Assembly (NCBI GenBank): GCA_013140985.1
Contig: JABFRU010000062.1
Location: 1 to 39,627 of the forward strand
Direction of reading: 5' to 3'
Source of the DNA: Chitinophagaceae bacterium
Lineage (GTDB): Bacteria; Bacteroidota; Bacteroidia; Chitinophagales; Chitinophagaceae
Length of the DNA stretch: 39,627 bases
The number at the start of each line of letters is the position of its first letter. The first letter of the stretch is position 1. The position numbers and the translations under genes are program-made. The notes beneath the pieces are model-generated. The model was not told the origin of the DNA. It ran no database searches and was given only the letters and a program-made list of their open reading frames with translations. Below are positions 5,326 to 39,627 of the stretch, in pieces.

Positions 5326-8300
5326 ATGAGAAAAAAAATTACCACAATTGTTTTTTTCTTCTTTTTGTTTTCTCTTCTGCTTATTTCCTGCAAACAACTG
5401 CAAAATAAAAATGCTGATACCGAAAACATGTTCACCAGGGAGAAAGGGCCTGACGGGAAGATGACGGACCTTAAAGGCGCCATGGAGTATGAATTCAATA
5501 TGATTAAAAATCCCACTACAGGCACAATTCCTGAAGGTATATTTGAAGCCGAACGGGCGCAGGCAAGAGAAATTCTTGCCAGGCAACAAATGAATAGCAG
5601 GATAGAAGCTGTAAATGCATATAGCTTCCAGGGCCCGAATAATCTTGGTGGAAGAACAAGGACCATTGCTTATGATGTAAGATATGATGGAGTGGCAAAC
5701 CGGATCATTCTTGCCGGCGGAGTAAGCGGCGGTGTTTATAAATCAACAGATGATGGAGCCACATGGGTTCGCAAAAGTCCCGCAGGCGAACATTTCGCCT
5801 GCATGAGTATTGCACAGGATACAAGGGTTGGCTTCCGGGATACATGGTATTATTGTGTCGGAGAGGGAACCGGAAATTCGGCAGGCGCATCAGGTGCAGG
5901 ATATTCCGGAAATGGTGTATATAAATCAACAGATAATGGAGAAACATGGAGCCGTTTGTCAGCATCCAATACAACAGCTTTAGAATCATTCTCAGTTCCT
6001 GAAGATTACATAACTAAAATCATTGTTGATCCGACAGACGGATATGTTTATGCTGCCTGTGCTGCGGCAATAAGAAGATCAACTGATGGTGGCACTACCT
6101 GGGCAACTGTTTTATCCGGGCCTTTATCTTTTTCAAGTCAATTCACAGATATTGTTGTTTCCAGTACCGGCCGGTTATATGCATCGTTTGGAGGTACAAA
6201 TGATTCAGGAGTTGATGGTGTTTGGGCTTCAGCCCCTGGCCCAACATCAGGTGATGTGGGATCCTGGACCCGTATTGCGGGTACCGGCGCCGGAGGTTCA
6301 CCTGCCGGATGGAATGCTGAACCGGCTTATGGAAGAGTGGTGCTTGCTATTGCACCCAGCAGTGAGAATCTTTTGTATGCGCTTTATTATACCAGTGGAA
6401 GTCCGGTCTGCCCCGGAGCTGTAGTTGAAGCAGATCTGTTCAGATGGGATGATATTGGCGGAACCTGGACCGATCTTTCTGCCACATTACCAAATGAAGC
6501 GGGTTGCCTTTCCGGAAATGATCCATTTGCAGTACAGGGAGGATACGACCTTGTAGTTGCTGTTAAACCTGATGATCCTTTAACCATTTTTATTGGTGGA
6601 ACGAATGCCTACCGTTCAAGTGATGCCGGACTTACCTGGACAAGGATAGGAGGATATGCAAGCCCGGCCAGCTATGCATTGTATGCCAGTTCACACCCGG
6701 ATATTCATTCATTTGTATTTCAACCGGGCAGTCCCCTGATCATGCTTTGTGGTAATGACGGAGGAATTCAACGGACAACAGATTGTACAGCAGGCAGCGT
6801 AAGCTGGTCGCAGATAAATGTGGGGTACCGAACGTATCAATATTATTATGTGGACATTGATCCCCGTGTAGCTAATGACAAAGTGATCGGCGGCGCACAG
6901 GATAATGGCTCAACGAGAAACATTGGAGGCACAGGTACCAGCTTTGAAATGGTTTGGGGCGGTGATGGTGTTTCAGTGGGATTAAATGACCCGGCAGCAA
7001 CCGGCGGCACACAATATGAATATGTCGGATCGCAATTAGGCGCTATTAACAGAAGAACTTCCGGAACTGCTCTTGGATTTTCGACAGCGATTACCCCGGA
7101 ATATGCAAATACCGTAACAAGCGCAGGATTATTTGTTACACTTTTCAAATTGGACCAGGATAATTCTCAAATTCTATACTATGCCAATGATGATACTTTA
7201 TACCGCACTACTTCTGCATCAACTGTAACAACAACTACCTGGACAAAAATGACAGGTGTAGCGGCTTCGGTAGGTGTTGCAAACGATATTACAGCATTAG
7301 CTATGACAAGGGGTACCTATAGTCCGGCTACTGCCAGTTTATTTTTCGGAACATCCGACGGAAGAGTTTTCAGGTTGGATGACCCGGCAGGAGCGGCAGC
7401 AGGAACAGCACCAGAGGATATTGAGGATGGAGATTTTCCTGCAGGTTATATAAGCAGTATTGCTGTTAATCCCCGAAATGATGATACGGTTATGGTTACT
7501 TTATCAAATTATGGAATATCCGGTAATGTCTGGTGGACAGGTAACGCCAATTCAGCAAACCCGACCTGGACAAATGTTGAAGATAATCTCACCCTGCCTT
7601 CTTATCGCAGTTGCGCTATACATGTTGTTCCCAATTCAACTGAAGTGCAATATTATGTAGGCACATCTGTAGGATTATACAGGAAAACCGGAGAGCTTCC
7701 GGTAGTTGCCGGAGCTGCTAATGATTGGGCACAGGAAGGTGCAAGCACACTGGGTAATGCAGTTGTCTCGTCGCTGGCATTACGGCCTTCTGACGGCAAT
7801 ATGTTAGTAGGAACTCACGGATATGGCATGTGGAAGACAGCGTTAAGTTTATTTGTAGTACCTGTTGAATTAACAGAGTTCAAAGGAACATTACAAAACA
7901 ATAAAACAGCTTTACTGCAATGGACCACTTCGGCAGAATACAATAGCAAGCATTTTGAACTGGAAAGATCTTTTGATGGTGTCAATTTCAGAAAGATCAC
8001 AACTATTGCTGCGGCTGGTAACAGCACAACTACCCGTCAATATAGTTATGTTGACAGGGAACCACTCACTGAAAAGAATTATTACAGGCTGCGAACTGTT
8101 GACATGGATAATCAAAGCAAGTTGAGCAACATAGTGCTATTGCAATTGACAGGAGCCAAACAGGAGATACAGGTGCTTGGCAATCCTTTTACGGATAATA
8201 AACTTACTATACGTTTTGTAAAAACTCCTGATGCAAAAGGTGAACTAAGATTAAATGATATGACAGGCCGGCTGGTGGCAAGAAGAGTTATCGGGCCGGG

Positions 8301-8406
8301 AGAACAGCAGATCGAATTCACTATTCCGGGTACTGCTGCAGGAACTTACATTTTACAAGCAATACTTGGCAATAAAACATATACTGTCAAAGTGCTGAAA
8401 GAGTAA
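5326..8406 (+). CDS. Large Asp-box (BNR/sortilin-like) T9SS cargo protein with lipobox
   Basis: The ATG at 5326 is preferred; a TTG two codons upstream is also open. The 1026-residue protein begins with a hydrophobic signal ending LLISC (Cys22), a good lipoprotein box. The middle contains at least four Asp boxes of the form STDxGxTW (near residues 139, 201, 251 and 430), typical of beta-propellers of the sialidase/Vps10/BNR superfamily; no sialidase active site was identified. A fibronectin-like module follows (about 843-940, PVELTEFKG...ALLQWTTSAE), and the last 77 residues form a T9SS type A sorting domain ending GTYILQAILGNKTYTVKVLKE. It is probably secreted and surface-attached. Combining a lipobox with a T9SS tail is odd. 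A strong terminator follows. Confidence 0.8.
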   Translation: MRKKITTIVFFFFLFSLLLISCKQLQNKNADTENMFTREKGPDGKMTDLKGAMEYEFNMIKNPTTGTIPEGIFEAERAQAREILARQQMNSRIEAVNAYSFQGPNNLGGRTRTIAYDVRYDGVANRIILAGGVSGGVYKSTDDGATWVRKSPAGEHFACMSIAQDTRVGFRDTWYYCVGEGTGNSAGASGAGYSGNGVYKSTDNGETWSRLSASNTTALESFSVPEDYITKIIVDPTDGYVYAACAAAIRRSTDGGTTWATVLSGPLSFSSQFTDIVVSSTGRLYASFGGTNDSGVDGVWASAPGPTSGDVGSWTRIAGTGAGGSPAGWNAEPAYGRVVLAIAPSSENLLYALYYTSGSPVCPGAVVEADLFRWDDIGGTWTDLSATLPNEAGCLSGNDPFAVQGGYDLVVAVKPDDPLTIFIGGTNAYRSSDAGLTWTRIGGYASPASYALYASSHPDIHSFVFQPGSPLIMLCGNDGGIQRTTDCTAGSVSWSQINVGYRTYQYYYVDIDPRVANDKVIGGAQDNGSTRNIGGTGTSFEMVWGGDGVSVGLNDPAATGGTQYEYVGSQLGAINRRTSGTALGFSTAITPEYANTVTSAGLFVTLFKLDQDNSQILYYANDDTLYRTTSASTVTTTTWTKMTGVAASVGVANDITALAMTRGTYSPATASLFFGTSDGRVFRLDDPAGAAAGTAPEDIEDGDFPAGYISSIAVNPRNDDTVMVTLSNYGISGNVWWTGNANSANPTWTNVEDNLTLPSYRSCAIHVVPNSTEVQYYVGTSVGLYRKTGELPVVAGAANDWAQEGASTLGNAVVSSLALRPSDGNMLVGTHGYGMWKTALSLFVVPVELTEFKGTLQNNKTALLQWTTSAEYNSKHFELERSFDGVNFRKITTIAAAGNSTTTRQYSYVDREPLTEKNYYRLRTVDMDNQSKLSNIVLLQLTGAKQEIQVLGNPFTDNKLTIRFVKTPDAKGELRLNDMTGRLVARRVIGPGEQQIEFTIPGTAAGTYILQAILGNKTYTVKVLKE

Positions 8407-13800: not shown

Positions 13801-14213
13801 TTGCAGCAGGAATATTTGTACCGAAATCTGCCGGCACAGGTGTAAAAACAGTTACTTATACGGCAACGAATGCAGGATGCGTAACAGCAAAATCAACCGT
13901 AATACAAGTGGATGAGTGTCCTGACCGTCACAGGTTGTTGCCTGTTAAGGAAGCTGTGCTGATCTACCCGAATCCAAACCTTGGTAATTTCAGCTTGCGC
14001 ATGAATTCTGACCTTTATACCAAACTTGGTGTACAGGTAATAGGTACAGATGGTAAAGTGTTCATGACGAAAGAATTTACCAATCTTGTTTTCGGCAGTG
14101 TGATGCCAATGGATCTTACTTCACTTGCACAAGGCACTTACTTACTTTATATGTATAATGACGAGAATGGCTTTGTAAAACGTGGAGATGGTGTAGTGAT
14201 CTACAAACACTAA
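10830..14213 (+). CDS. Secreted M12B-type (reprolysin-like) zinc metalloprotease with T9SS tail
   Basis: The 1127-residue protein has a signal peptide (MSKLYKILLAILIVGST...VSAQ), a region of about 170 residues that looks like a propeptide, and a catalytic domain with the metzincin motif HEVGHQMGANH (zinc ligands His344, His348 and His354; catalytic Glu345) and a Met-turn ITIMGYAG (Met376). Cysteines in the catalytic domain probably form disulfides. Several Ig-like or PKD-like beta domains follow (about 420-1030), two of them similar to each other (VCIGTNATFTS... and ICEGANTSMSV...). The last 83 residues (YPNPNLGNFSL...GTYLLYMYND) are a T9SS type A sorting domain. It probably acts outside the cell on proteins; the substrate is unknown. 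A strong terminator follows. Confidence 0.88.
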   Translation: MSKLYKILLAILIVGSTSLTVSAQDYWSSETNRAGITTHKAVARLSFPTDFKLYSLNIEPLRQTLFSIIGANASRHSATITLPNVAGQMEQFEVYEASNFEPALQAQFPEIRAYSGRSISDPASTLKISISPQGIQTMVFRAGGPCEYIEPYSQDNTVYAVFHSQRNKGALPWVCSTPDQQLATSLNAQVNRIESNVGQLKTMRLAQSCNGEYSNYFGATSAAQVALVLAAYNATLTRCNGCYEKDLAIHLNLIANTTAVIYYDPATDPYTTLANWNNQLQATLTANIGEANYDIGHMFGASGGGGNAGCIGCVCVDGQKGRGITSPADGIPQGDNFDIDYVAHEVGHQMGANHTFSMSNEGTGVNKEVGSGITIMGYAGITNQDVAPHSIDIFNMSSIQQIQVNMAGKTCPITTSLTGINATPVIAALSNWTIPISTPFELTGSATDADPGDVLTYCWEQNDDGTGQTGNNSVARENKPTGPNWLSFSPTTSGTRMLPRLSTVLGGLNLTPPLPGGDAIANIEALSNVARTLNFRLTVRDNRPYNGTAIGQTNFQDNVITVSAAVGPFLITSQNAAVSYQGGSSQTVTWSVNGTTGAPTNTANVRILWSSNAGISFPTVLVASTPNDGSEVVTMPAGVTSEGRIRVEAIGNIYFDINNANISITPPPSGFTLSTPAAVNSTCPTPATLTTNTTATYSGGHSANITLSAISGVPAGTNVTFGTNPLTTGSTSTTINLNNANTLAPGTYNITIQGVSAPAANQTIIASFTITPAVGPPITLQPTDQTVCIGTNATFTSASPTATGFQWYVNSGAGFNIIPGATSASYTVVGVTAGQNLYQYRVIASTACGTTTSNSAVLNVNSSATISAHPAALTICEGANTSMSVTATTAIGTIVYQWQVSVDNGANWINLAGATTNTFNQTGVLVGQNGYRFRVVLTTGCGSINSNDALLTVNAYPKFEFNGLPKQMCISDPSFALSATIGGGVWSGPGVAAGIFVPKSAGTGVKTVTYTATNAGCVTAKSTVIQVDECPDRHRLLPVKEAVLIYPNPNLGNFSLRMNSDLYTKLGVQVIGTDGKVFMTKEFTNLVFGSVMPMDLTSLAQGTYLLYMYNDENGFVKRGDGVVIYKH

Positions 14214-26263: not shown

Positions 26264-29200
26264 ATGAGAAAAATTTACTTGATGCTGCTTACTGTTTGTT
26301 TTGCAGCCGCCGTGAATGGACAGATCACAATTACTGTTACGGGTAATACTAACACAACGCCAAATCTTTTGGCAACTTATCCAAGTTTAGCCGCAGCATT
26401 GACTGACTTAAATGCTGTTACTGCTATGACAGGGCCTGTTGTCCTTACCTGCGATGCAGGAACATCTGAAACAGCACCTGTAAAGGGATTTGCTTTGGGC
26501 AGTGCAACGCTAAATCCGGTATTAAGTTCAACAAATACTATTACAATCAATAAAACCGGGGGCGTAGTAACCATAAATGCTGCTGTTGGTACGGCGAACG
26601 GGCCATCAGCTACTCCAGATGGTATGCTATATCTTAACGGTGCTGACCATGTTACTATTGATGGTTTAACCTTTACCGATGGTAACGTAGCCAGTGCAAC
26701 TGTTGCCATGGAATTTGGTATTGCACTTTTCAAAAGGGCAGTAGGGGATGGTTGTAATAATAACACTATTCAAAACTGCACTTTCAATATGCAACGGATA
26801 AACAACAACTCCGGTAGTACCCCAATGCTGGATGGTTCATGGGCTATTGAAGTATTGAATTCAACTGCGGCAGCAGCTACTACTTCCCTTACTCCTACTA
26901 ATGGCGGAACACTTGCTACAAACGGAACAAACTCAGGCAATAAATTCTACGCAAATTCTATTAATAGCGGAAACGGAGGCATCGGTTTTGGAGGTTTTGC
27001 AGCTACTTTAGGAGTTGGGCCTGCCCCAACGGCAACAACCTTTCTTGGTGATTTAAGTAATGATGTTGGTGGATCAGCTTTAGCTACAGGTAACACTATC
27101 TTGAATTTTGGAGGCGGTGCAGCAACAAGTCCTGCTGCTGGTATAAGGGCAAATAACCAATGGAGTATTAATATTTCTTATAACACGATTAATAATAATG
27201 ATGGTGGCGGGGTAAATCATGCTACTACGTTACGTGGTATTTATGCTCAGGCGGGAACCAGTGCTAATGCTACTATTACTAATAACACGGTAACAGTTAA
27301 GTCAGCTGCTACTACAAGTGCATGTACTGGAATTGAAAATGTCATTGGCTCTACTGCTGCTGCTAACACTATTAATATTAATAACAACACAATTCAAAAC
27401 TGTACATATACAACGGCTACAACAGCAACATTTACTGGAATTTTGAGTTCGGCTACAGCGGCAACAGTTAATATTAATAGCAATACTGTAAACAACAACA
27501 ATATTGGTGCTGCGGCTACTGCAAGTTCATGCACTTTTCAGGGAATTTACAGCTCTGCGAGTGCTACAAATTTTATAGCAAGTAATAATACAATTACCAA
27601 TAATAGTGTATTGAATCAGGGAGGGACTTTGTATTGTTTAAGAGGTTCCACATCTCTGCTTACATGGAATAATAATAATATAAATACAAATTCTTTTCCA
27701 AATCATGGAGCTGCATTATCAGCTTCACTTCACGGGATGTATGATCTGTCTAGCCCAACCCAGGAGAATTTTTCGGGTAATACAATTTATAATCAAACTA
27801 TTTCCGGAAGCAGTACTTCTACGTCATCAGTTATTAATGGTATTATCATGAATACATCGTCTTCATCAATTAAGAACTGGACTGGAAATGATATACATAC
27901 ACTAACTTTTTCTAATTCCTCTACCGGGGCTGCTGTAGTCAATGGGGTGTCGCAAAGTTTAGGGGCAACAGTGAATATTTTCAAGAATAAGATATATGAC
28001 TTGACATCAAATGGTTCAGCTAGTACTGTTAATGGCATACTTATTACTTCAGGAACCAACCTGAATATTTATAATAACCTGATTGGAGATTTAAAAACTC
28101 CTTCTGCCAGCGCAAATGATGCTATCAGAGGTATCAGCAGTACTTCTACTACCACTTCTTCCACAATAAACGTTTATTACAATACTGTCTATTTAAATGC
28201 AACATCCTCCGGAGTAAACTTTGGTACTTCTGGAATTTTCCATACTACAAGTGCTACAGCAACCACTGCTGCCTTGAATCTAAGAAATAATATCATTGTA
28301 AACACTTCAACTCCTGCAGGTACCGGCTTCACTGTGGCATATCGCAGAAGTAGTACAACTTTGACCAACTTTGTCTCTACCTCAAATAATAATGATTTTT
28401 ACGCAAGCGCAACTACCGCTTCGCCGTATTTTATTTTTTATGATGGAACAACAGGTTATCAGATTGCCGGATATAAAACTTTGGTTGCGCCAAGAGATGC
28501 AACTTCAGTAAGTGAAGATCCTTCCTTCCAGAGTATTGTGGGTGCAAATGCCAATTTCCTTAAGTATGATGTTTTAAACCCCAAACAAATAGAAAGCGGT
28601 GCAGTAAATATTGCAACGTTTACAGATGATTATATCGGAACCATCCGCCAGGGTAATGGCGGCTATGCAGGAACAGGTACGGCGCCGGATATGGGCGCAT
28701 GGGAATTAGAGGGTATAGCAGCGGATTTAACTGGTCCTTCAATTTCTTACACAGGCTTTACTAATACTTCTTGTTTAACAGACAGAACACTTTCTCCCGT
28801 AACAATAACAGATGCAAGCGGCGTTAATATTACTGCTGGTACAAGACCACGCCTCTATTATAAGAAATCAGTTAATGCCAATACGTTTGTTGATAATACC
28901 AATGCCACTGACGGCTGGAAATATGTGGAGGCAACAGGAGTTGGCGGTTCACCGTTCAGCTTTACAACTGATTATAGTTTATTATTTGGCGGAGTTCCTG
29001 TAACCACTGATGTTATACAATATTTTGTGGTAGCGCAGGACAATGCGGGTACACCCAACATAGGTATCAACAGCGGTATTTTCGCTGCAACTCCTGCCAG
29101 TGTTGCGCTTACGGCAGCCGCATTCCCGCTTACCGGAACAATTAACAGCTATACTGTTGTTGCTCCCGGTTTGATTGGCACTGTTACCATTGGTGCAGCA

Positions 29201-32200
29201 GGTACCTATACAAGTATTAGCGGCACCGGCGGTTTGTTTGATGCCATCAATACGGGAGGAATGTCAGGTAACCTAGTTGCGAATATTCTTGATGCAAGCG
29301 TTACTGAAACAGGAACTGTGGCCTTGAATGCAATAAATTATAATGGTTGTGTTGCCGGTCCTTATACACTTACGATCAAACCAAATACTACATCCACTCT
29401 TACCGGTTCTGTTGGCACAGGCGCCATCATTAAACTGAACGGTGCAGATTATGTCACGATTGACGGTAGCAACAGCGGAGGTTCAGACAGGAGTCTTACT
29501 ATTGAGAACACTACAACAACTACTAGTGGCAATGCTGTTGTATGGCTGGCTTCGCCGGCTTCGGGCAATGGTGCTACAAATAATACAATTAAAAATTGTA
29601 TCATCCAGGGTAATGCTGCCACTACTACTTTCACAGGTGTTCATATCGGGGGCAGCACAACGATAGGGCTGACCACGGCAGGAACAGAATTGAACAGTAA
29701 CAACACGATTAATAATAACCTTCTCCGCAAATCCCAGTATGGGGTCACTATGTTTGGTTTTGCGGCGGCTTCTCCTGATCAGAATAATATTATCAGTAAT
29801 AATAATTTTGGTACTGCAGTTACAGGCGAAGGTTTTTCATTACTTGCTATCAATGCAGACAGGCAGCTTGGCCTGGTGGTTTCGGGTAACGAAGTGCAAA
29901 ATGTGGTGAACGCAACCAACACTTCATCTACTCCATTTGGCGGTATCCGCCTGCTTGATTTTAAGAACGGGCAGTGTTATAATAACAGGATACATGACCT
30001 GGCTTACACCGGTACAAGCACACCGAAGATCTATGGTATTGCTATCACCAGTGGCAGTTATACAACAGTGGGTAATCCATCCAATGCGCTGGTATATAAT
30101 AATTCGGTTGCCAGGATCACTTCAACCGGCGTAAGTAGTGTTTGGAATACAACCGGTATCCTTGCAAGTGCTGGTTATGGTGACCGGTTCTATTACAATT
30201 CAGTGCATTTAACTGGTCAGCTGGCCAACAGTTCATCTGGCCTGGCAGCAGCTTTCGCTAATGGAGATGGAAATATTACATCGGTATGTACCAACATTGA
30301 TGTACGGAATAATAGTTTCAGCCTGACTGGTTCAAGTGCTGTTGCCGGCGGTAATTTCTGGGCTTATTATTCTGCTGCTACAACTGTTGCAGGGTCAACA
30401 TTAAACTATAACGATCTTTATTGCAATGGTACCAATGCCACTAATAATGTGGGAAGGTTCAATGCAACAAACCATGCCAACCTTGCTGCATGGCAAGCTG
30501 CCACCGGCCAGGAGGCTAATTCAATTTCTGTGGATCCATTATATAATTCTATTACCAATCTGCAACCACAACTCGGCTCACCATTGGTTGGGGCGGGTAA
30601 TGGTGCAGGTACAGGAGTTACGTTGGACATACTCGGTATTACCCGCAGCGTTGGTACTCCACCAGCAGGATCCACAATCGGGGCTTATGAAAATGCTGCT
30701 GATGCGGCTGGTCCTGTCATCACATATACTCCATTAAGTAATACTTGTGCAACCGGCAGCCGCACACTTACAGCCAGCATCACTGATCCAAGCGGAGTAC
30801 CTACAGCCGGTGCAGGTCTTCCTGTGCTTTACTGGAGAATAAATGCTGGCGCATGGAATGCAGCAACAGGTGTATTTGTAAGCGGAAGCAATTATGATTT
30901 TACATTTGGCGCTGGTGTAGTTGTAACTGATGTGGTGCAATATTATATAGCGGCACAGGATAATGCAGGAACTCCAAATGTTTCAGTATTCCCTTCAGCG
31001 GGTGCAGCTGGGTTTACTATCAATCCTCCTGCGGCAGCAACACCACCAACCAATCCATCATCTTATACGATACAAAACCTTCTTGCCGCCGGTACTTATA
31101 CAGTTGGCGCAGCCGGAACTTATCCAACATTAAACGCAGCATTCACTGCTTACAATACAAGCTGTCTTGGTGGCCCGGTTGTATTCAACCTGATTGATGC
31201 AGCTTACACGAATACTTCTGATACGCTCAGGGCTAACGCCGATGCAAGTGCAATCAATACGCTTACCATAAAAGCAACACTTGCCGGTACAACTATCACC
31301 GGTAACTCAGCCCAGGCTACGATCGTGTTGCATGGTGCAGATTATATCATCATTGATGGTTCAATTGGCAGTACGGCCAATACGGTTTGCCCGCTAAGTG
31401 CAGCCAGCCGTGACCTGACCATCAGTAACACAAATGCCGGTACTTCCAGCTCTGTAGTTTCTCTTAACACTACAGGTTCCGGTGATGCGGCTACTAATAA
31501 TACTGTCAGGAACTGTATTATTACAGGAAATACCAACACCACCACACTTTCGGGTATTAATATAAGTGGTACCGCAATCGGAAACGGCACAGGAGCCAAT
31601 TTCAATAACAACAATTCTCTTATCAATAATGAAGTATCGAGGGCAGTAATTGGAATATTTACTGCAGGATCCGGAATAGCAACAAAAAGCGCTAATACGA
31701 CAATCAATCAGAATGTGATGACAACCGCAGGCACCAACAGTATTGGCCGTTTCGGAATTATGTCTTTGCTGGAAAATAACCTGACTGTATCCGGTAATTC
31801 CGTATCTGGTATTGTAAATTCAGCAAGTGCTGATGCAGGTGGTATTTGCGTAGGTGCGAATGGCGGGTTCAGTACGACTACAATGAGCGGAGGTGAAGTA
31901 ACCAACGCCACTATCACAAATAATACAATCGGCGTTGTTCAGCAAACCAACACCTTCAGTGTTTCAGGGATCGCTGTATTGGCCGGTACTACCGGTACCA
32001 TGCTTATTGCAAATAATATGCTTTCAGGCGTAAACGCAAATGGAACCAGCGGTGATTTTGCTACCGGTATTTATGTCACTGGCGGTACGGGTTCTACTAT
32101 CAATGTTTATCACAATACCGTTACAATGGCGGGCACACTCACGGGTGCAGATGAAGCTTCTTATGCTTTTGCCCTGTTGAGTTCCAGTCCAACGGTAAAT

Positions 32201-35200
32201 GTTCGCAATAATATCTTTACATCAACCGGCAGCACAGGAGCTAACAGGAACAGGGCAATAGGGCTTGGTTTTGCGCTTCCGGCAGCTAACCTTGTTTCCG
32301 ATTATAATGATCTTTTTGCAAGCGGTACAGGAGCAGAAGTGGCGCAGACGACAACAATGGATAATACCGGTGGTGTAAACCATACTACATTGCTTAACTG
32401 GCAGACCAATGCAACGCAGGATGCCAATTCAAAAAATGTACTGCCAACATTTGTATCGGCAACAAATCTGCATCTCGTAACACCGGATGGTATCAATTTT
32501 ACCAATCTTGAAAGCGCTGGTGTAGCTGTATCCGTTACCAATGATATAGACTGCGAATCAAGACCAAATGGTACTGCCCATGATATTGGCGCAGATGAAT
32601 TTGTTGGTGCGGTTCCAGCTTGTAATGTTCCGACTGCAGTTTCTGTCGGTTCCATTACAACTACGACAGCTTCTGTGTCATTCACCTGCACAGGTTGTGT
32701 CGGCACATTTATAGTTGAGTATGGACTTCCGGGCTTTACCCCTGGCACTGGCGCAACAGCAGGTGCAGGCGGCACCGTTGTAACCGGTGGAGCATCGCCA
32801 ATTGCGTTAAGCGGTCTTACTGCCGCAACAACATACGATGTATATGTAAGACAGGAATGCACACCGGGTAGCAGCTATAGCAATAATTCAACGGTGGTCA
32901 CATTTACTACATTATGTAATCCTTTCAGTATTCCTTACTCTGAGAATTTTGATGCGGTAACACCGCCTGCAATACCTGTCTGCTCATTCAAAGAGGATCT
33001 GAATGGCGCAACAACATGGAATACATCAACAACAAACCCACGGTCTGCACCTAATAACCTGACTTATAATTGGGATGGTGTTACACCTGGTGATGACTGG
33101 TGGTTCACACCGGGACTTAACCTGACAGGCGGTACGCAATACAGGCTTACTTTCTGGTACAGGGCGAGAAGCGCTTCTTTCCCTGAATCCCTCGAAGTAC
33201 TTTATGGTACAGGACAGAATGCTGCTTCTATGACATCAGGAACGTTGTTCAGCAGTCTTAATTTCACCAACACAACATATATACAGGCGGTGGTAGATTT
33301 TACTCCGGGATCAACAGGTGTATATTATATCGGGTTCCATGCTATTTCTGATCCTGATCAGTTTGATCTGCATGTGGATGATATCAATGTTGACCTTACT
33401 CCAACATGCTTCCCGCCAACAGGCCTTGCAGTTAATAATATTACAGCGACCACTGCTGATCTTAGCTGGGTGGCGCCCGTTGGTGGTTCACCCGTTAATT
33501 ATGAATGGAAAGTAGTACTGCAGGGTGCAGGTTCGGGCGGTGCTGCGGTATCTTCCGGTACAACAGTTCATCCGGTTGTAACAGCTACAGCTACCGGCCT
33601 TTCAGCACAGACCTCTTATGATCTGTTTGTAAGAACAGATTGCGGCGGCGGCGGCTTCAGTTCTTATGCCGGACCTGTAACCTTTACAACACCACCGGCC
33701 AATGATAATGCGCCGGGTGCACTCACTCTTACTGTAGGTGCAGGCTGTACAGGAAATCCTTATTCAAATTCCGGGGCGACACAATCAGCCGGTGAACCGT
33801 TTGCAGCTTGTAAAGGTTCTGCGGGCTTCAATACCGTATGGTTCCAATTTGTTGCACCGTCCAGTGGCGCTGTCAGGGTAACCAATGATTTCAGTGGTGG
33901 TACAATGGGTACTGACTCAAGAATGTCATTGTTCTCTACAACCAATGTGAACGACTATACACAATTCACCAATATTGCCTGCGATGATGATAATGGGGCA
34001 ACCGTCAGTACACGGTCAATATTGTATGCAACAGGATTAACTCCGGGTAATACATATTATATACAGGTGGATGGTTTCAGTGCAGGTACTGCGCAGGGTA
34101 CATTCTGTCTTGCTGTTGATGAGTTGGCTTCATCAATGATCACAACTACAGCGACAGCCTGTGCAGCAGGTCAATCCCTCTCTGCATATAATGATAATTA
34201 CACAGGTTGGATATCTGCTACAGATGCCAGCGGAAACCTGATAGCGCTGATCAATAACATGACAGGTGGCGCTACTACTTCTACATTCGATAATAGTGTA
34301 AATATTAATTCAGCTGCGGTAAGGCAGGATGCAGTATCCGGTCAGTATTATCATGACAGGAACTTCCGCATCACCAACGCTTCTGTTACCAATGCGAACA
34401 TCAGGTTCTTCATTCTGAATGCCGAGTTGTCTGCATTGCAGGGAGTGGACGCAGCAGTTACATTGGGTAACCTGCAGGCCACCCGCCAAACAGGCGCCGC
34501 ATGCCAGAGCAGTTTTGTTGCTGCTAATGGAACCAACTCCAGCTTATCACAAACAGCCAACGGAGGAGGTACAGGGTACAGCTGGATACAGGTCAATACA
34601 CCTGGTTTGTCCAACTTCTATTTGAATACAATGAGAACTTTTGTTCCGGTTAAAACATGGTTGCACGGAGCATATAACTCTGGCCTGGCCCGTCACAAAG
34701 ATGTAACAGCAACATGGGCAGCTGTGCTGAATGCAAGTGCATTAAGCCAGCCGTATAACACAGCAGCATTTGGTAACTATGCCGGCACTGAAACGGTGAC
34801 AGCAGGATTCTTTACTTCAACAGGTGCAACAACTGATGTGGTGGATTGGGTATTATTGGAATTAAGAGATGCAACAACACCATCCACGTTGATCACCCGC
34901 AGGGCTGCCTTTGTCCGTGAAGATGGCCGCATTGTTGATCTTGATGGTACTTCGGATGTTTCCTTCAGGAGTTTGGCACCGGCCAACTATTTCGTAGTGA
35001 TACGTCACAGGAACCATTTGGGTATAAGAACAGCGCTTGCTCAAACAGCAGACGGAACAATGGGTGTTGCGATACCTGCGGTGTATGACTTTAGTACAGC
35101 CCAGGCACAGGCATTCCAGGATCCGGCGATACTGGCACTTGCACCGCCGAATAATAATAATGCGATGAGAGATCTTGGCGCTGGCGTGTTTGGTATGTGG

Positions 35201-35452
35201 GCAGGTAACGCTAATGCCAATACAGCGGTAAGAGCAAGCGGTCCATTAGCGCAGAATGATTATTTATTCCTGATCAGTACAACATTGGGTAACGATGTAA
35301 ACCTTATTTTAAGTAATGTTTACAGCAATGCGGACATGAACATGGATGGCCAGGTAAGAGCCAGTGGTCCGTTATCCCAAAATGATTACCTGTTCCTGAT
35401 CTCAACCGTATTAGGCAACGATGTAAACAGGGTAGTGGCACAACATCAATAA
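26264..35452 (+). CDS. Giant beta-helix surface protein with C-terminal dockerin-like pair (A1)
   Basis: The 3062-residue protein has a signal peptide (MRKIYLMLLTVCFAAAVNGQ) and three large right-handed beta-helix blocks (starting near 30, 969 and 1606) rich in 'NNTIxN' turns and HVTIDG/YVTIDG strands. The first two are followed by a small SYTGFTN- or TYTPLSN-type Ig-like domain near 823 and 1482. Then come a fibronectin III domain (about 2117-2220), a MAM- or CBM-like jelly roll (2222-2378), a second fibronectin III (2380-2478), a pre-peptidase-like domain (2479-2620), an unknown domain and a conserved VVDWVLLELRD module (about 2858). The end is two dockerin-like repeats (about 2981-3062). 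No T9SS sorting domain is recognisable. The B1 gene follows after 31 nt and is surely co-transcribed. Adhesion or glycan binding is likely; no catalytic motif was seen. Confidence 0.85.
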   Translation: MRKIYLMLLTVCFAAAVNGQITITVTGNTNTTPNLLATYPSLAAALTDLNAVTAMTGPVVLTCDAGTSETAPVKGFALGSATLNPVLSSTNTITINKTGGVVTINAAVGTANGPSATPDGMLYLNGADHVTIDGLTFTDGNVASATVAMEFGIALFKRAVGDGCNNNTIQNCTFNMQRINNNSGSTPMLDGSWAIEVLNSTAAAATTSLTPTNGGTLATNGTNSGNKFYANSINSGNGGIGFGGFAATLGVGPAPTATTFLGDLSNDVGGSALATGNTILNFGGGAATSPAAGIRANNQWSINISYNTINNNDGGGVNHATTLRGIYAQAGTSANATITNNTVTVKSAATTSACTGIENVIGSTAAANTININNNTIQNCTYTTATTATFTGILSSATAATVNINSNTVNNNNIGAAATASSCTFQGIYSSASATNFIASNNTITNNSVLNQGGTLYCLRGSTSLLTWNNNNINTNSFPNHGAALSASLHGMYDLSSPTQENFSGNTIYNQTISGSSTSTSSVINGIIMNTSSSSIKNWTGNDIHTLTFSNSSTGAAVVNGVSQSLGATVNIFKNKIYDLTSNGSASTVNGILITSGTNLNIYNNLIGDLKTPSASANDAIRGISSTSTTTSSTINVYYNTVYLNATSSGVNFGTSGIFHTTSATATTAALNLRNNIIVNTSTPAGTGFTVAYRRSSTTLTNFVSTSNNNDFYASATTASPYFIFYDGTTGYQIAGYKTLVAPRDATSVSEDPSFQSIVGANANFLKYDVLNPKQIESGAVNIATFTDDYIGTIRQGNGGYAGTGTAPDMGAWELEGIAADLTGPSISYTGFTNTSCLTDRTLSPVTITDASGVNITAGTRPRLYYKKSVNANTFVDNTNATDGWKYVEATGVGGSPFSFTTDYSLLFGGVPVTTDVIQYFVVAQDNAGTPNIGINSGIFAATPASVALTAAAFPLTGTINSYTVVAPGLIGTVTIGAAGTYTSISGTGGLFDAINTGGMSGNLVANILDASVTETGTVALNAINYNGCVAGPYTLTIKPNTTSTLTGSVGTGAIIKLNGADYVTIDGSNSGGSDRSLTIENTTTTTSGNAVVWLASPASGNGATNNTIKNCIIQGNAATTTFTGVHIGGSTTIGLTTAGTELNSNNTINNNLLRKSQYGVTMFGFAAASPDQNNIISNNNFGTAVTGEGFSLLAINADRQLGLVVSGNEVQNVVNATNTSSTPFGGIRLLDFKNGQCYNNRIHDLAYTGTSTPKIYGIAITSGSYTTVGNPSNALVYNNSVARITSTGVSSVWNTTGILASAGYGDRFYYNSVHLTGQLANSSSGLAAAFANGDGNITSVCTNIDVRNNSFSLTGSSAVAGGNFWAYYSAATTVAGSTLNYNDLYCNGTNATNNVGRFNATNHANLAAWQAATGQEANSISVDPLYNSITNLQPQLGSPLVGAGNGAGTGVTLDILGITRSVGTPPAGSTIGAYENAADAAGPVITYTPLSNTCATGSRTLTASITDPSGVPTAGAGLPVLYWRINAGAWNAATGVFVSGSNYDFTFGAGVVVTDVVQYYIAAQDNAGTPNVSVFPSAGAAGFTINPPAAATPPTNPSSYTIQNLLAAGTYTVGAAGTYPTLNAAFTAYNTSCLGGPVVFNLIDAAYTNTSDTLRANADASAINTLTIKATLAGTTITGNSAQATIVLHGADYIIIDGSIGSTANTVCPLSAASRDLTISNTNAGTSSSVVSLNTTGSGDAATNNTVRNCIITGNTNTTTLSGINISGTAIGNGTGANFNNNNSLINNEVSRAVIGIFTAGSGIATKSANTTINQNVMTTAGTNSIGRFGIMSLLENNLTVSGNSVSGIVNSASADAGGICVGANGGFSTTTMSGGEVTNATITNNTIGVVQQTNTFSVSGIAVLAGTTGTMLIANNMLSGVNANGTSGDFATGIYVTGGTGSTINVYHNTVTMAGTLTGADEASYAFALLSSSPTVNVRNNIFTSTGSTGANRNRAIGLGFALPAANLVSDYNDLFASGTGAEVAQTTTMDNTGGVNHTTLLNWQTNATQDANSKNVLPTFVSATNLHLVTPDGINFTNLESAGVAVSVTNDIDCESRPNGTAHDIGADEFVGAVPACNVPTAVSVGSITTTTASVSFTCTGCVGTFIVEYGLPGFTPGTGATAGAGGTVVTGGASPIALSGLTAATTYDVYVRQECTPGSSYSNNSTVVTFTTLCNPFSIPYSENFDAVTPPAIPVCSFKEDLNGATTWNTSTTNPRSAPNNLTYNWDGVTPGDDWWFTPGLNLTGGTQYRLTFWYRARSASFPESLEVLYGTGQNAASMTSGTLFSSLNFTNTTYIQAVVDFTPGSTGVYYIGFHAISDPDQFDLHVDDINVDLTPTCFPPTGLAVNNITATTADLSWVAPVGGSPVNYEWKVVLQGAGSGGAAVSSGTTVHPVVTATATGLSAQTSYDLFVRTDCGGGGFSSYAGPVTFTTPPANDNAPGALTLTVGAGCTGNPYSNSGATQSAGEPFAACKGSAGFNTVWFQFVAPSSGAVRVTNDFSGGTMGTDSRMSLFSTTNVNDYTQFTNIACDDDNGATVSTRSILYATGLTPGNTYYIQVDGFSAGTAQGTFCLAVDELASSMITTTATACAAGQSLSAYNDNYTGWISATDASGNLIALINNMTGGATTSTFDNSVNINSAAVRQDAVSGQYYHDRNFRITNASVTNANIRFFILNAELSALQGVDAAVTLGNLQATRQTGAACQSSFVAANGTNSSLSQTANGGGTGYSWIQVNTPGLSNFYLNTMRTFVPVKTWLHGAYNSGLARHKDVTATWAAVLNASALSQPYNTAAFGNYAGTETVTAGFFTSTGATTDVVDWVLLELRDATTPSTLITRRAAFVREDGRIVDLDGTSDVSFRSLAPANYFVVIRHRNHLGIRTALAQTADGTMGVAIPAVYDFSTAQAQAFQDPAILALAPPNNNNAMRDLGAGVFGMWAGNANANTAVRASGPLAQNDYLFLISTTLGNDVNLILSNVYSNADMNMDGQVRASGPLSQNDYLFLISTVLGNDVNRVVAQHQ
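35204..35449 (+). repeat. Tandem dockerin-like repeats encoded at the 3' end of A1
   Basis: Two copies share VRASGPLxQNDYLFLISTxLGNDVN. Copy 1 has a degenerate loop with Asn2982, Asn2984 and Asn2986; copy 2 has Asp3024, Asn3026, Asp3028 and Gly3029, the first half of a dockerin calcium loop. The DNA of copy 1 is nearly identical to the first copy in A2 (38434-38540). Confidence 0.7.
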
Positions 35453-35483
35453 CTAACCTATCACAAAAGAAAAAACAATGAAT

Positions 35484-36409
35484 ATGAGAAAGATTTTAAT
35501 AGCGATAATGGTGATGCTGGTAAGCTATACCAGCGAAGCGCAGTTTATACAAGGCTCAGTGAGGAAAGGCACGGCCTATAACCAGGTGGATGTAATGTTC
35601 CGTTCGACCTTCAACAGTAATGTAGGAGAGTATGTGAACTATGTTCAGTTTTCGCTGTCCATTCCGGTATCAGCTTACCAGGCTGGAGTGACAGCTACCT
35701 TAACCCCGGTGGGTCCTTTTGCGCCATTAGTGTTTGCGCAGGGTCCTCAGTACACACAGGGCTCAACGAATGAAAGGGTATTTACCTGGGTATGTGTGAA
35801 TCCTGCGGTGACAGCGATGTCATGGACAACAGCAGATTTTGTAGGAGCTACCGTTACATTTACCGGCGGCATTGCCAATACGCTGGTGAAGATGTGTGAT
35901 TATACGAATGCCGGGGGTGGCAGTAACTCTAATACTTATTTTGCTATCAATGTAACCCAGCATGGCGGAGATGTGACCAACTATGGCGATCTGTATTTCA
36001 CGAACCTGGGAGAGAGCACTGAAAATATATATGGTAATGGCGACCAGTTTGTTCAGACCTCTGCATTGGTGAGTTTGCCGGTTGATTTTTTAAACTTCAG
36101 TGGCTACAGGGCAGGGGCAAGAAATATTTTGAACTGGACAACCTCAAGTGAGCAGAACAATAAAGGTTTTGAAGTACAGAGATCTATTGATGGTTCCAAT
36201 TATGTTGCACTTGGCTTTGTGAATTCACTGGCACCGGGTGGCAACAGTGCAACAGAACTGAGCTATACATTCAGTGATAATAATCTTTCAGGCAGCCGCC
36301 AGTATTATCGTTTGAAGCAGGTGAACCTTGACAACAGCAGCAAGTACAGTAATATAGTATTGATCAAAGGTGACAGGGGTATGCAGATGACGATAGATGG
36401 TTTATATCC
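35484..36409 (+). repeat. 926-bp direct repeat, copy 1 (second copy 38702-39627)
   Basis: The two stretches, offset by 3218 bp, look identical base for base along the whole visible length. Identity begins exactly at the ATG; the bases just upstream differ (AAT versus ACC). The second copy is cut by the window edge, so the true repeat may be longer. Confidence 0.93.
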
Positions 36410-36644
36410 TAATCCGGCCACTGCAAAGATCAATGTATTGCTGGAAGCCACGAACCGGGAGAAGGTGACCCTGGTGGTGAGTGATATGTCAGGCAAGATC
36501 GTATCACAAACGGTAGTGGAAGTACAGACGGGCAGCAATACAGTGCCGATAGAGATCAGCACACTGGCCAATGGCACCTATACAGTGAAGCTGGTATGTG
36601 CAAGTGGTTGTGAGAATGTGGTAAACAAGTTTGTGAAGCAGTAA
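35484..36644 (+). CDS. T9SS type A cargo with possible cohesin-like domain (B1)
   Basis: The start at 35484 is chosen because the identical second copy can begin only there; an ATG two codons upstream (35478) is also in frame. The 386-residue protein has a signal peptide (MRKILIAIMVMLVSYTSEAQ) and a domain of about 170 residues with alternating strands (VDVMFRSTF, YVNYVQFSLSIP, RVFTWVCVNP, GATVTFTGG). Its order resembles a cohesin or related CBM-type beta-sandwich. A fibronectin-like module (about 198-300, LPVDFLNFSG...ILNWTTSSEQ) and a T9SS type A sorting domain (about 308-386, YPNPATAKINVLL ... GTYTVKLV) follow. It should be exported by T9SS and anchored on the surface. It lies directly behind A1. 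The cohesin assignment is my inference; the T9SS tail is clear. Confidence 0.82.
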   Translation: MRKILIAIMVMLVSYTSEAQFIQGSVRKGTAYNQVDVMFRSTFNSNVGEYVNYVQFSLSIPVSAYQAGVTATLTPVGPFAPLVFAQGPQYTQGSTNERVFTWVCVNPAVTAMSWTTADFVGATVTFTGGIANTLVKMCDYTNAGGGSNSNTYFAINVTQHGGDVTNYGDLYFTNLGESTENIYGNGDQFVQTSALVSLPVDFLNFSGYRAGARNILNWTTSSEQNNKGFEVQRSIDGSNYVALGFVNSLAPGGNSATELSYTFSDNNLSGSRQYYRLKQVNLDNSSKYSNIVLIKGDRGMQMTIDGLYPNPATAKINVLLEATNREKVTLVVSDMSGKIVSQTVVEVQTGSNTVPIEISTLANGTYTVKLVCASGCENVVNKFVKQ

Positions 36645-37008
36645 GAAAAGGCGAGTGGGGAATAGCAAGTAGGAAATCCTTTAAATTATATAGATCCCTT
36701 CCTTAACAGGAAGGGATCTTTTTTGGCGTAATAAAAAGATAATAGAGGATTGCCGGGATATTGGTTTATTTTTTGTGTGTTATTTTGGCCGGGAGACAAA
36801 ATATCCCCCAAAAGTGGTATAGGTTGAGTGCTGAAAAACCTGAACTTTGTCCAGGACAAGCCGCTTACTCAACCGGGAGTTCCGTTTGCTAAATGCCCTG
36901 AGGACGATGATGATTTTATTTGAAAATTTGGGCTAACTTAGACGGACGCATCAGATCATACCGTACCAGGAACTAAAAATCATTGCTCAATTAAACAAGC
37001 AAGAGCTT
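36645..37008. other. 364-nt intergenic region between the two A-B cassettes
   Basis: No gene is seen. It contains a weak heptamer-like arm (about 36652-36671), the B1 terminator, TTTGGCCGG (36784-36792) shared with the region upstream of A1, and two nested dyads: GGTTGAGT (36822-36829) with ACTCAACC (36867-36874), enclosing TTGTCCAGGACAA (36847-36859). The inner dyad has a 1-nt centre and therefore fits a protein-binding operator better than an RNA hairpin. No convincing -7 box was found. Confidence 0.55.
36692..36724 (+). terminator. Intrinsic terminator closing cassette 1
   Basis: AGATCCCTTCC (36692-36702) and GGAAGGGATCT (36709-36719) form a perfect 11-bp stem with a 6-nt loop, followed by a run of T. 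The stem equals that of the orphan hairpin at 25896-25925. Confidence 0.92.
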
Positions 37009-38682
37009 ATGAAAAAAATTATCTTACTCTCAGCCAGCTGCTTTATGGTAATGGTCATAAAAGCGCAGTTGTACATTGACAATGCAACTTTCTTTATCCA
37101 GTCGGGAGCTACCGTAACAGTACAGGGTGATGTAACGAGCAATGTTGACATACAGGGTCCTGGCCTGCTGCAACTAAAAGGCAGCTCCAATCAAAATGTA
37201 AATATGAACGGCTTTACCATTCCCAACCTGGAAATGGATAATACGGCCAATGCTACTTTGCTAGGTCATGCAAGGATCGGCAGCAGCATGTTATTTACCA
37301 ATGGAAGGATACAACTGGGCACATTTAATATGACGATCGCTTCAACAGCTACCATCACAGGTCACAACAGTTCAAGATTCTTTATTACCAATAATACAGG
37401 GAACCTGGTAAGGCAAAGTCTTACTGCAGCTTTCACCTATCCTGTAGGTTTCAGTACTACGGAATATAACCCGGTAACAATAACCAATGCAGGTACTTCG
37501 GATGATTACAGTGTCCGTTGTTTACAGAATGTATTGGCTAATGGCACATCGGGTGCAACACTAACAACCAATTTTGCCGGCAATACATGGGTCATTTCAG
37601 AGGCGGTAGGAGGCGGAGGCAATCTTAGTTTAACGAATGAATGGGCTGTCGGTGATGAATTGGCCGGCTTTAATCGTTTGAAATCAGGTATTGCCCGTTT
37701 CAATACAGGCACAGACTGGGATCTTCCGGCGAGTAATGTTCTGGCAGCAGCCGGTGCGGGACCTTATACAAGATCAAGATCATCGATCACTAACTCCATA
37801 CCTTCCGGTACTCCCGGTGTGTTTGCAGTAGGGGATCTTGACCAGGTGAATAGAGCCAATCTCAACCTGAAAGTATTTTTAAGTGGTCCTTATTCAGGCG
37901 GGGTCATGGGAGATGGTTTAAGAACCGGTGCTGTGATACCTCTTACACAGCCATACTCTTCTGCCCTGAATGCATTCTTTACCCGTGTGGGTGTTTATGA
38001 CGGATCAGCCACCGTGAATGAAACAATACCTAACCTGGGTGTACTTGATGTAGTGGGTACCAATGATGATATTGTTGACTGGATCTATTTGTCTTTACAG
38101 GATGGAACAACGCCTGCTACCAAATTACAAACAAGGGCTGCGCTAGTACAAAGGGATGGCGATATAGTAGAATACGATCCGGTTGGCGCCACTTATATTC
38201 CGGTAAGGATGCCGATAGATGCCGATGCCAATTATCATTTGGTGGTAGGACACAGGAATCACTTGCCAATAAGAACCCCGGTTTCGCAATTATTACAGGA
38301 CGGCGTAACCTTCGCTTATAATTTCACGACAGCACAAGCACAGGCTTACCAGGATCCTGTGGTTCTTGCATTGCCTTCTCCCAATAATAATAATGCGATG
38401 AGAGATGTAAGTGGTGTATTTGTAATGTGGGGGGGTAATGGTAACAGCAATGGAACGGTAAGAGCAAGCGGCCCATTAGCCCAGAATGATTATTTATTCC
38501 TGATCAGTACGACATTGGGTAACGATGTGAACCTGATCCTTAGCCCGGTCTATCACACTGCCGATTATAATATGAACAGCGTTACCCGTGCCAGCGGTCC
38601 GTTGGCGCAGAATGATTACCTGTTCCTGATCTCAACCATGTTAGGCAACAACGTTAACCGTATAATTACCCAACATCAATAA
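37009..38682 (+). CDS. Surface protein with C-terminal dockerin-like pair (A2)
   Basis: The 557-residue protein has a signal peptide (MKKIILLSASCFMVMVIKAQ) and an N-terminal beta-solenoid-like domain (about 21-130; IDNATFFIQSGATVTVQGDV, VNMNGFTIPNLEM), followed by a linker domain. From about residue 290 the protein parallels the A1 end: VFLSGPYSGGVMGDGLRTG, IVDWIYLSLQDGTTPATKLQ, RAALVQRDGDIVEYD, GHRNHLPIRTP, then two dockerin-like repeats. In these the loops are Asn477/Asn479/Asn481 and Asp519/Asn521/Asn523. No T9SS tail is visible; the protein ends ITQHQ, close to VAQHQ in A1. The B2 gene follows after 19 nt. Module architecture suggests a surface structural or adhesive protein; no active site was seen. 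Confidence 0.82.
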   Translation: MKKIILLSASCFMVMVIKAQLYIDNATFFIQSGATVTVQGDVTSNVDIQGPGLLQLKGSSNQNVNMNGFTIPNLEMDNTANATLLGHARIGSSMLFTNGRIQLGTFNMTIASTATITGHNSSRFFITNNTGNLVRQSLTAAFTYPVGFSTTEYNPVTITNAGTSDDYSVRCLQNVLANGTSGATLTTNFAGNTWVISEAVGGGGNLSLTNEWAVGDELAGFNRLKSGIARFNTGTDWDLPASNVLAAAGAGPYTRSRSSITNSIPSGTPGVFAVGDLDQVNRANLNLKVFLSGPYSGGVMGDGLRTGAVIPLTQPYSSALNAFFTRVGVYDGSATVNETIPNLGVLDVVGTNDDIVDWIYLSLQDGTTPATKLQTRAALVQRDGDIVEYDPVGATYIPVRMPIDADANYHLVVGHRNHLPIRTPVSQLLQDGVTFAYNFTTAQAQAYQDPVVLALPSPNNNNAMRDVSGVFVMWGGNGNSNGTVRASGPLAQNDYLFLISTTLGNDVNLILSPVYHTADYNMNSVTRASGPLAQNDYLFLISTMLGNNVNRIITQHQ

Positions 38683-38701
38683 CGAGCAAAAGATACTAAC
38701 C

Positions 38702-39627
38702 ATGAGAAAGATTTTAATAGCGATAATGGTGATGCTGGTAAGCTATACCAGCGAAGCGCAGTTTATACAAGGCTCAGTGAGGAAAGGCACGGCCTATAAC
38801 CAGGTGGATGTAATGTTCCGTTCGACCTTCAACAGTAATGTAGGAGAGTATGTGAACTATGTTCAGTTTTCGCTGTCCATTCCGGTATCAGCTTACCAGG
38901 CTGGAGTGACAGCTACCTTAACCCCGGTGGGTCCTTTTGCGCCATTAGTGTTTGCGCAGGGTCCTCAGTACACACAGGGCTCAACGAATGAAAGGGTATT
39001 TACCTGGGTATGTGTGAATCCTGCGGTGACAGCGATGTCATGGACAACAGCAGATTTTGTAGGAGCTACCGTTACATTTACCGGCGGCATTGCCAATACG
39101 CTGGTGAAGATGTGTGATTATACGAATGCCGGGGGTGGCAGTAACTCTAATACTTATTTTGCTATCAATGTAACCCAGCATGGCGGAGATGTGACCAACT
39201 ATGGCGATCTGTATTTCACGAACCTGGGAGAGAGCACTGAAAATATATATGGTAATGGCGACCAGTTTGTTCAGACCTCTGCATTGGTGAGTTTGCCGGT
39301 TGATTTTTTAAACTTCAGTGGCTACAGGGCAGGGGCAAGAAATATTTTGAACTGGACAACCTCAAGTGAGCAGAACAATAAAGGTTTTGAAGTACAGAGA
39401 TCTATTGATGGTTCCAATTATGTTGCACTTGGCTTTGTGAATTCACTGGCACCGGGTGGCAACAGTGCAACAGAACTGAGCTATACATTCAGTGATAATA
39501 ATCTTTCAGGCAGCCGCCAGTATTATCGTTTGAAGCAGGTGAACCTTGACAACAGCAGCAAGTACAGTAATATAGTATTGATCAAAGGTGACAGGGGTAT
39601 GCAGATGACGATAGATGGTTTATATCC
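38702..39627 (+). CDS. T9SS type A cargo, second copy (B2), truncated by the window edge
   Basis: The gene starts at 38702 and is still open at the right edge (308 complete codons plus 2 nt). Its visible sequence is identical to B1 from the start codon to the beginning of the sorting domain (the last residues visible match the start of YPNP), so the signal peptide, cohesin-like domain and fibronectin-like module are all present. The T9SS tail would lie just outside. It is placed behind A2 exactly as B1 is behind A1, which points to a conserved A-B unit. Confidence 0.85.
   Translation, partial: MRKILIAIMVMLVSYTSEAQFIQGSVRKGTAYNQVDVMFRSTFNSNVGEYVNYVQFSLSIPVSAYQAGVTATLTPVGPFAPLVFAQGPQYTQGSTNERVFTWVCVNPAVTAMSWTTADFVGATVTFTGGIANTLVKMCDYTNAGGGSNSNTYFAINVTQHGGDVTNYGDLYFTNLGESTENIYGNGDQFVQTSALVSLPVDFLNFSGYRAGARNILNWTTSSEQNNKGFEVQRSIDGSNYVALGFVNSLAPGGNSATELSYTFSDNNLSGSRQYYRLKQVNLDNSSKYSNIVLIKGDRGMQMTIDGLY

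Follow-up and report, generated by a model that had tools for sequence, protein, structure and literature searches.

The stretch of DNA analysed here (the window) is the entire 39,627-nucleotide (nt) contig JABFRU010000062.1 (G000:C17) of the 3.86 Mb genome of a Chitinophagaceae bacterium (GCA_013140985.1), and its right end carries four genes, in the order A1-B1-A2-B2 and all on the + strand, whose products probably form a cohesin/dockerin-like system of surface display coupled to the type IX secretion system (T9SS). The features of these genes are as follows, with protein lengths in amino acids (aa).

26264..35452, + strand: A1, a predicted exported protein of 3062 aa with a signal-peptide-like start, beta-helix-like content, fn3, an X-like module and a dockerin-like pair
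34643..35194, + strand: A1 X-like (immunoglobulin (Ig)/transthyretin-like) module, adjoining the dockerin (from model confidence and fold rows)
35195..35449, + strand: A1 dockerin-like pair, two repeats, residues 2978-3062 (from repeat alignment and model helices)
35478..36644, + strand: B1, 388 aa (386 from the second Met), with a signal-peptide-like start, a cohesin-like domain, a linker domain common to its relatives and a T9SS type A tail
35541..36074, + strand: B1 cohesin-like N-domain
36402..36596, + strand: B1 T9SS type A sorting domain (PF18962)
37009..38682, + strand: A2, a predicted exported protein of 557 aa with a passenger unlike that of A1 and a tail of the same kind
37861..38424, + strand: A2 X-like module, identical to that of A1 at 86 of 172 aligned positions (50%)
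38425..38679, + strand: A2 dockerin-like pair, identical to that of A1 at 66 of 85 positions (78%)
38702..39627, + strand: B2, truncated at the contig end, the same as B1 at 926 of 926 nt; the remainder is most likely on contig C41
38759..39292, + strand: B2 cohesin-like N-domain, identical to that of B1

The stop codon of A1 lies 25 nt before the ATG of B1 (31 nt before the next ATG) and that of A2 19 nt before B2, in agreement with the initial annotation, which had placed a B gene 19-31 nt after each A gene. Sequence searches find no further A-tails or B N-domains elsewhere in the genome, which thus holds exactly two of each, all in the window.

Both A proteins begin with a stretch that, judged by eye, resembles a signal peptide, and both end in a duplicated unit (26 of 40 positions in agreement between the copies in A1, 25 of 40 in A2). 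No Pfam or NCBIfam sorting-domain model matches A1 or A2 up to an E value of 1, and the initial description of these proteins as having signal peptides, paired dockerin-like C-terminal repeats and no T9SS tail is confirmed. Their passengers differ, with A1 matching fn3 (4.7e-10), choice_anch_Q (1.3e-5) and Beta_helix (0.0013, under its cut-off) and A2 matching no Pfam or NCBIfam model; searches with the same two databases reveal no enzyme domain in either. The A tail is larger than initially described, comprising an Ig/transthyretin-like module as well as the dockerin. In the predicted structure of the A1 tail, the X-like module has predicted local distance difference test (pLDDT) values of 72-92 in 14 of the model's first 19 ten-residue blocks, and the repeats show helices at matching places (model residues 205-214 and 246-256), with pLDDT values below 50 that are too poor for a separate claim of a dockerin fold. 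Among 50 rows of re-alignment to the PDB, the whole tail is spanned by seven X-dockerin chains only (130-136 residues, at most 91 for all others; weak Z), and at the level of these models it looks like an X-dockerin dyad. The calcium ligands of the repeats are partly lost in the window proteins, and the Pfam dockerin model PF00404 matches neither A1 nor A2, and only one of 16 A4 members (E 0.067). Of 99 related tails, 70 contain one or more copies of the strict motif D-x-[DN]-x-[DN]-G-x-[VI], as compared with 0.4 in shuffles.

The C-terminus of B1 matches PF18962 (2.3e-12) and TIGR04183 (6.3e-11), confirming the T9SS type A tail initially assigned to it, and its N-terminus carries a signal peptide as judged by eye. 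Genes for PorU and SprA are present in the genome, over cut-off, and B1 thus combines the attributes of a T9SS type A substrate: a signal peptide (by eye), a PF18962 tail and T9SS genes in the same genome. The predicted structure of the B1 N-domain has the cohesin jelly-roll fold, and cohesins head both fold searches, as the initial annotation had anticipated; among the rows listed in the PDB re-alignment, the first 38 are all cohesins, with chains of the type 3 carbohydrate-binding module (CBM3) following lower down. In contrast to the fold comparison, the Pfam cohesin model PF00963 does not assign the B1 N-domain to a family and matches only 2 of 56 relatives (best E 0.0038). When seven genomes are searched with the Pfam cohesin model, five give matches, of which a single one, in an A protein of G011, exceeds the cut-off; the genome of the window gives none. 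Nor do profiles made from the B and A alignments retrieve any cohesin or dockerin from the PDB sequences. We read the sparse Pfam matches as the mark of a narrow model rather than of absence. They do leave room for a different reading, in which the N-domain is a cohesin/CBM-like sandwich that binds a glycan or some other surface partner, with A and B being neighbours through a shared process rather than through mutual binding: the CBM3-type chains have the same sandwich, Pfam does not name the domain a cohesin and A-B binding is a prediction. The unbroken run of cohesins at the head of the fold list argues against this, as does the co-variation described below.

Contig boundaries bear on how the second cassette is to be seen. 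The part of B2 within the window equals B1, counted from its second ATG, over all 926 nt. Gene conversion was considered for this identity; the last 127 nt of the window (39501-39627) are the same as the first 127 nt of contig C41, an overlap inside the repeated B gene, which means that assembly may contribute to the perfect identity seen within the window. Contig C41 continues with the 3' part of a B gene, including a T9SS tail (PF18962 at C41:120-314), differing from B1 at 14 of 362 positions, and because the overlap leads into this tailed end, B2 is most likely a real second copy with a T9SS tail of its own. Over the 6000 of 7840 nt of C41 that were covered, the next gene lies on the opposite strand, so the array probably consists of two cassettes.

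Two other open frames in the window, of 1032 and 1136 aa, contain T9SS type A tail matches, at 8182-8394 (26.2 bits, just below cut-off) and 13962-14180 (31.4 bits), and the whole genome contains 55 T9SS tails.

The pairing of A and B recurs in many families of the phylum. In a sample of 392 genomes, a profile built from 16 A-tails (cut-off E 1e-8) identifies 101 such tails in 51 genomes, including the two of the window, and the neighbourhoods of the other 99 were examined. The match is C-terminal, with a stop codon within 60 residues beyond it in 95 of 99 cases, and 84 of the 99 hits are followed on the same strand by an open reading frame starting at most 400 nt 3' of A (8 of the 84 being A-type themselves). 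Residues 23-210 of 53 of these neighbours, together with seven of ten named B domains (the window's included), form one family; single linkage could chain unrelated proteins, but none of 94 control reading frames from the same loci and the window joins this main B family, which speaks against chaining. Among the 53, one protein is itself A-type and has a socket-like domain. The median gap between A and the main-family neighbours is 24 nt, with 45 lying within 100 nt of A and 18 overlapping it. At an E value of 0.01, Pfam recognises T9SS tails in 41 of the 84 neighbours and NCBIfam in 44; CHU_C is present on 13. Conversely, a profile of 56 B domains, under whose cut-off the window's own B falls, matches 47 of these 392 genomes; A is also present in 41 of them, a co-occurrence that is partly circular, as the profile was made mostly from neighbours of A. 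In the six genomes with B and no A at the cut-off, an A-like gene lies directly 5' of B in four (by eye) and in two there is none.

Also instructive are the individual loci. A scan of contigs yields 15 A-tail loci, three of which (L051, L054, L058) have no room 3' of A; in 10 of the remaining 12 a B-type gene starts at most 63 nt after A (L047-L050, L052, L053, L055-L057, L060), that of L053 being longer. For L048, L056, L060 and the neighbours outside the main family, hhalign comparison with the B profile is mostly not significant, and they are not counted as main family, despite matching B in position and size. Most genomes in the genus of the window's host lack A-tails, with matches in only four of the 35 searched. 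In G009 (two A-tails) and G007 (one) of this genus, each A-tail is followed by a B-type gene with a T9SS-like tail. One of these three B N-domains is 29% identical to that of B1, and the others are missed by single-sequence search; a profile search detects all three, two of which contributed to the profile.

Despite this recurrence, the pairing is not uniform. A directly adjacent 3' main-family gene is found in 28 of 31 genomes with a single A; in genomes with several, at least one A has such a neighbour in 15 of 19, and only 25 of 68 A hits have one, leaving 43 without. Furthermore, no B lies beside A at L059 (6001-6756, encoding an A-type tail) of the gammaproteobacterium Thiofilum flexile, or at L061 of a Bacteroidetes metagenome-assembled genome. 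The initial suggestion that A-type tails should have B genes as their 3' neighbours thus holds for single-A genomes and for the 10 of 12 loci, and does not hold for most A hits of multi-A genomes. These exceptions weigh against the cognate-pair interpretation and, together with the C-terminal position of the tail, would be expected if the tail were instead a new type of outer-membrane targeting signal, or a calcium-stiffened stalk, working without B. That explanation does not account for the adjacent B in nearly all single-A genomes, nor for the co-variation of the A tail with the B socket, and we regard it as highly improbable.

An indirect indication that the dockerin-like plug of A and the cohesin-like socket of B belong together comes from a comparison of distance matrices for four segments (X module, dockerin, cohesin and C-terminal T9SS tail) over 55 A-B pairs. 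The highest correlation between the two proteins is that of dockerin with cohesin (0.56), followed by dockerin with T9SS tail (0.40), X module with cohesin (0.32) and X module with T9SS tail (0.25). With the X module and T9SS tail held fixed, the partial dockerin-cohesin correlation is 0.40, a value reached in 0 of 500 permutations, while the partial correlations of X module with cohesin and of dockerin with T9SS tail are 0.10 and 0.09; the permutation does not model the tree, and its counts are not probabilities. Since the X module and T9SS tail share the history of linked genes too, the excess of co-variation belongs to plug and socket. The partial dockerin-cohesin correlation is 0.46 after 20 deep-branching pairs, assigned by a list based on the end of B, are dropped (35 pairs), and 0.45 with one pair per genome (29 pairs), neither value being reached in any of 500 permutations. 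Restricting the comparison to the 20 deep-branching pairs gives 0.30 (reached by 11 of 500 permutations), and the correlation of X module with T9SS tail is higher there (0.41). The window agrees with the general pattern, the plugs of A1 and A2 being more alike than their X modules and the B genes being the same over the visible stretch. As the dockerin and cohesin segments co-vary more than other segments of both proteins, binding of the B N-domain to a glycan or another partner in place of A is unlikely.

Taken together, these observations favor the interpretation that each cassette encodes a cognate pair in which A is displayed on the cell surface through a T9SS-tailed B whose socket binds the plug, to which we assign a probability of roughly 80%; that A and B are cognate is very probable. 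In this arrangement, A would consist of a passenger (adhesin-like in A1, smaller and different in A2) followed by the X-like module and dockerin-like plug, and B of the cohesin-like socket and T9SS sorting tail. Both proteins, reading from their signal peptides, would reach the periplasm, where the plug is predicted by fold, gene pairing and co-variation to bind the socket, calcium possibly playing a role in the contact. Recognition of the B tail by T9SS, which is established for the tail family and consistent with the PorU and SprA genes, would carry B to the cell surface, and A, having no T9SS tail, would thereby be displayed, most simply by passing through the translocon already bound to B. 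As the plugs of A1 and A2 are nearly the same and the sockets of B1 and B2 are identical, either B could, on sequence grounds, hold either A. The initial notion of a standard adaptor is an oversimplification, since B differs strongly from genome to genome and does so together with its own A.

Plug and socket might also bind only outside the cell, with A crossing by another route or B capturing A from other cells, the binding step itself being common to this possibility and to the cognate-pair interpretation. The present data are silent on the place of binding, and cellulosomal cohesins meet their dockerins outside the cell. However, A lacks a T9SS tail, no other outer-membrane route for it has been identified (none was systematically searched for), and the median 24-nt gaps suggest co-synthesis; binding confined to the exterior is thus improbable. 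More tentatively, and with somewhat less than even odds, the cassettes may represent a widespread hitch-hiking branch of T9SS, in which a small tailed cohesin adaptor takes up tail-less proteins, as long as 3000 residues, in the periplasm and the complex is exported and displayed as a whole, while plug and socket evolve fast and pair-specifically, which would explain why sequence models miss both domains. T9SS is known to move folded, even very large proteins, whose C-terminal domain is recognised by SprA together with PorV (PMC9251779). No description of T9SS co-export of a tail-less partner was found in the portions of the literature retrieved by our search.

Several variants of the theme occur elsewhere in the sample. 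An 841-aa protein of G245 (L176:1280-3805) has three tandem B-type cohesin-like domains and DUF11, a scaffoldin-like arrangement, and two-socket proteins are found in G432 (L178) and G406. In G071, a gene between an A and a B gene (L092:3509-4735) combines a socket-like N-terminal domain with a C-terminal A-type tail, in the manner of an adaptor scaffoldin. In the genome G045, which belongs to another family of the same order, 25 A-like tails are spread over many contigs, a cellulosome-like number of genes; at 22 loci (L015, L020-L040) the tails are mostly classical dockerin pairs (by eye), mostly without an adjoining B, and the genome also yields four hits for the socket (E 5.9e-9 to 6.6e-4), of which three lie on one contig. 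In 15 deep-branching loci (L136, L139-L142, L145, L147, L151, L152, L155, L163-L165, L167, L175) a third related gene follows the A-B pair at -4 to 249 nt. Among five of its products that were scanned, three have an OmpA domain (L139, L141, L151), two of these with a beta-barrel match as well, and the third gene could possibly encode the outer-membrane anchor of a three-gene unit.

Noncellulosomal cohesin and dockerin modules, reportedly described by Peer et al. in 2009, resemble the A-B system in lying outside plant-polymer degradation. The cellulosomal type II cohesin/X-dockerin pairs of Clostridium thermocellum and Acetivibrio, which are among the best fold rows, appear to share with the A-B system a socket fold on a surface-anchored protein and, at the very C-terminus, a plug with an Ig-like X module ahead of it. 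Here, in contrast, the host is Gram-negative, the anchor is a T9SS tail, the plug and socket genes lie side by side and the Pfam cohesin and dockerin models miss both domains. As each B has a single socket and the searches detect no enzyme domain in either A protein, the window does not encode a cellulosome; multi-socket proteins do occur in some other genomes. Although neither Pfam model recognises its domains, fold and working principle lead us to group the system with cohesin-dockerin pairs. Full text in open access, judged by titles and the starts of abstracts, yielded no description of this gene pair, with subscription papers and preprints mostly outside its scope, and two studies of cellulolytic Bacteroidetes report neither cohesins nor dockerins from the genomes or machineries that they treat (PMC5831590; PMC6247017). 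The combination of cohesin and T9SS tail is not new, however: the cellulosome-like system of Candidatus Stygibacter (Cloacimonadota) has a T9SS-type C-terminal domain on a multi-cohesin scaffoldin and dockerins on exported enzymes, both inferred there (PMC8542988). That system has a single large scaffoldin of tandem cohesins, its domains are recognisable and its clients are enzymes, whereas the adaptors described here mostly carry a single socket and are encoded beside the gene of their client. The evidence points to a T9SS-coupled, cohesin-dockerin-like family in Bacteroidota, mostly missed by Pfam models. Such a family could account for the arrival at the surface of some large exported proteins that lack sorting tails; it also opens co-export to experiment and supplies numerous candidate socket-plug pairs for engineering surface display. 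Like T9SS type A substrates, B ends in PF18962/TIGR04183; ordinary substrates of this type bring their own passenger, whereas B seems to hold another, tail-less protein.
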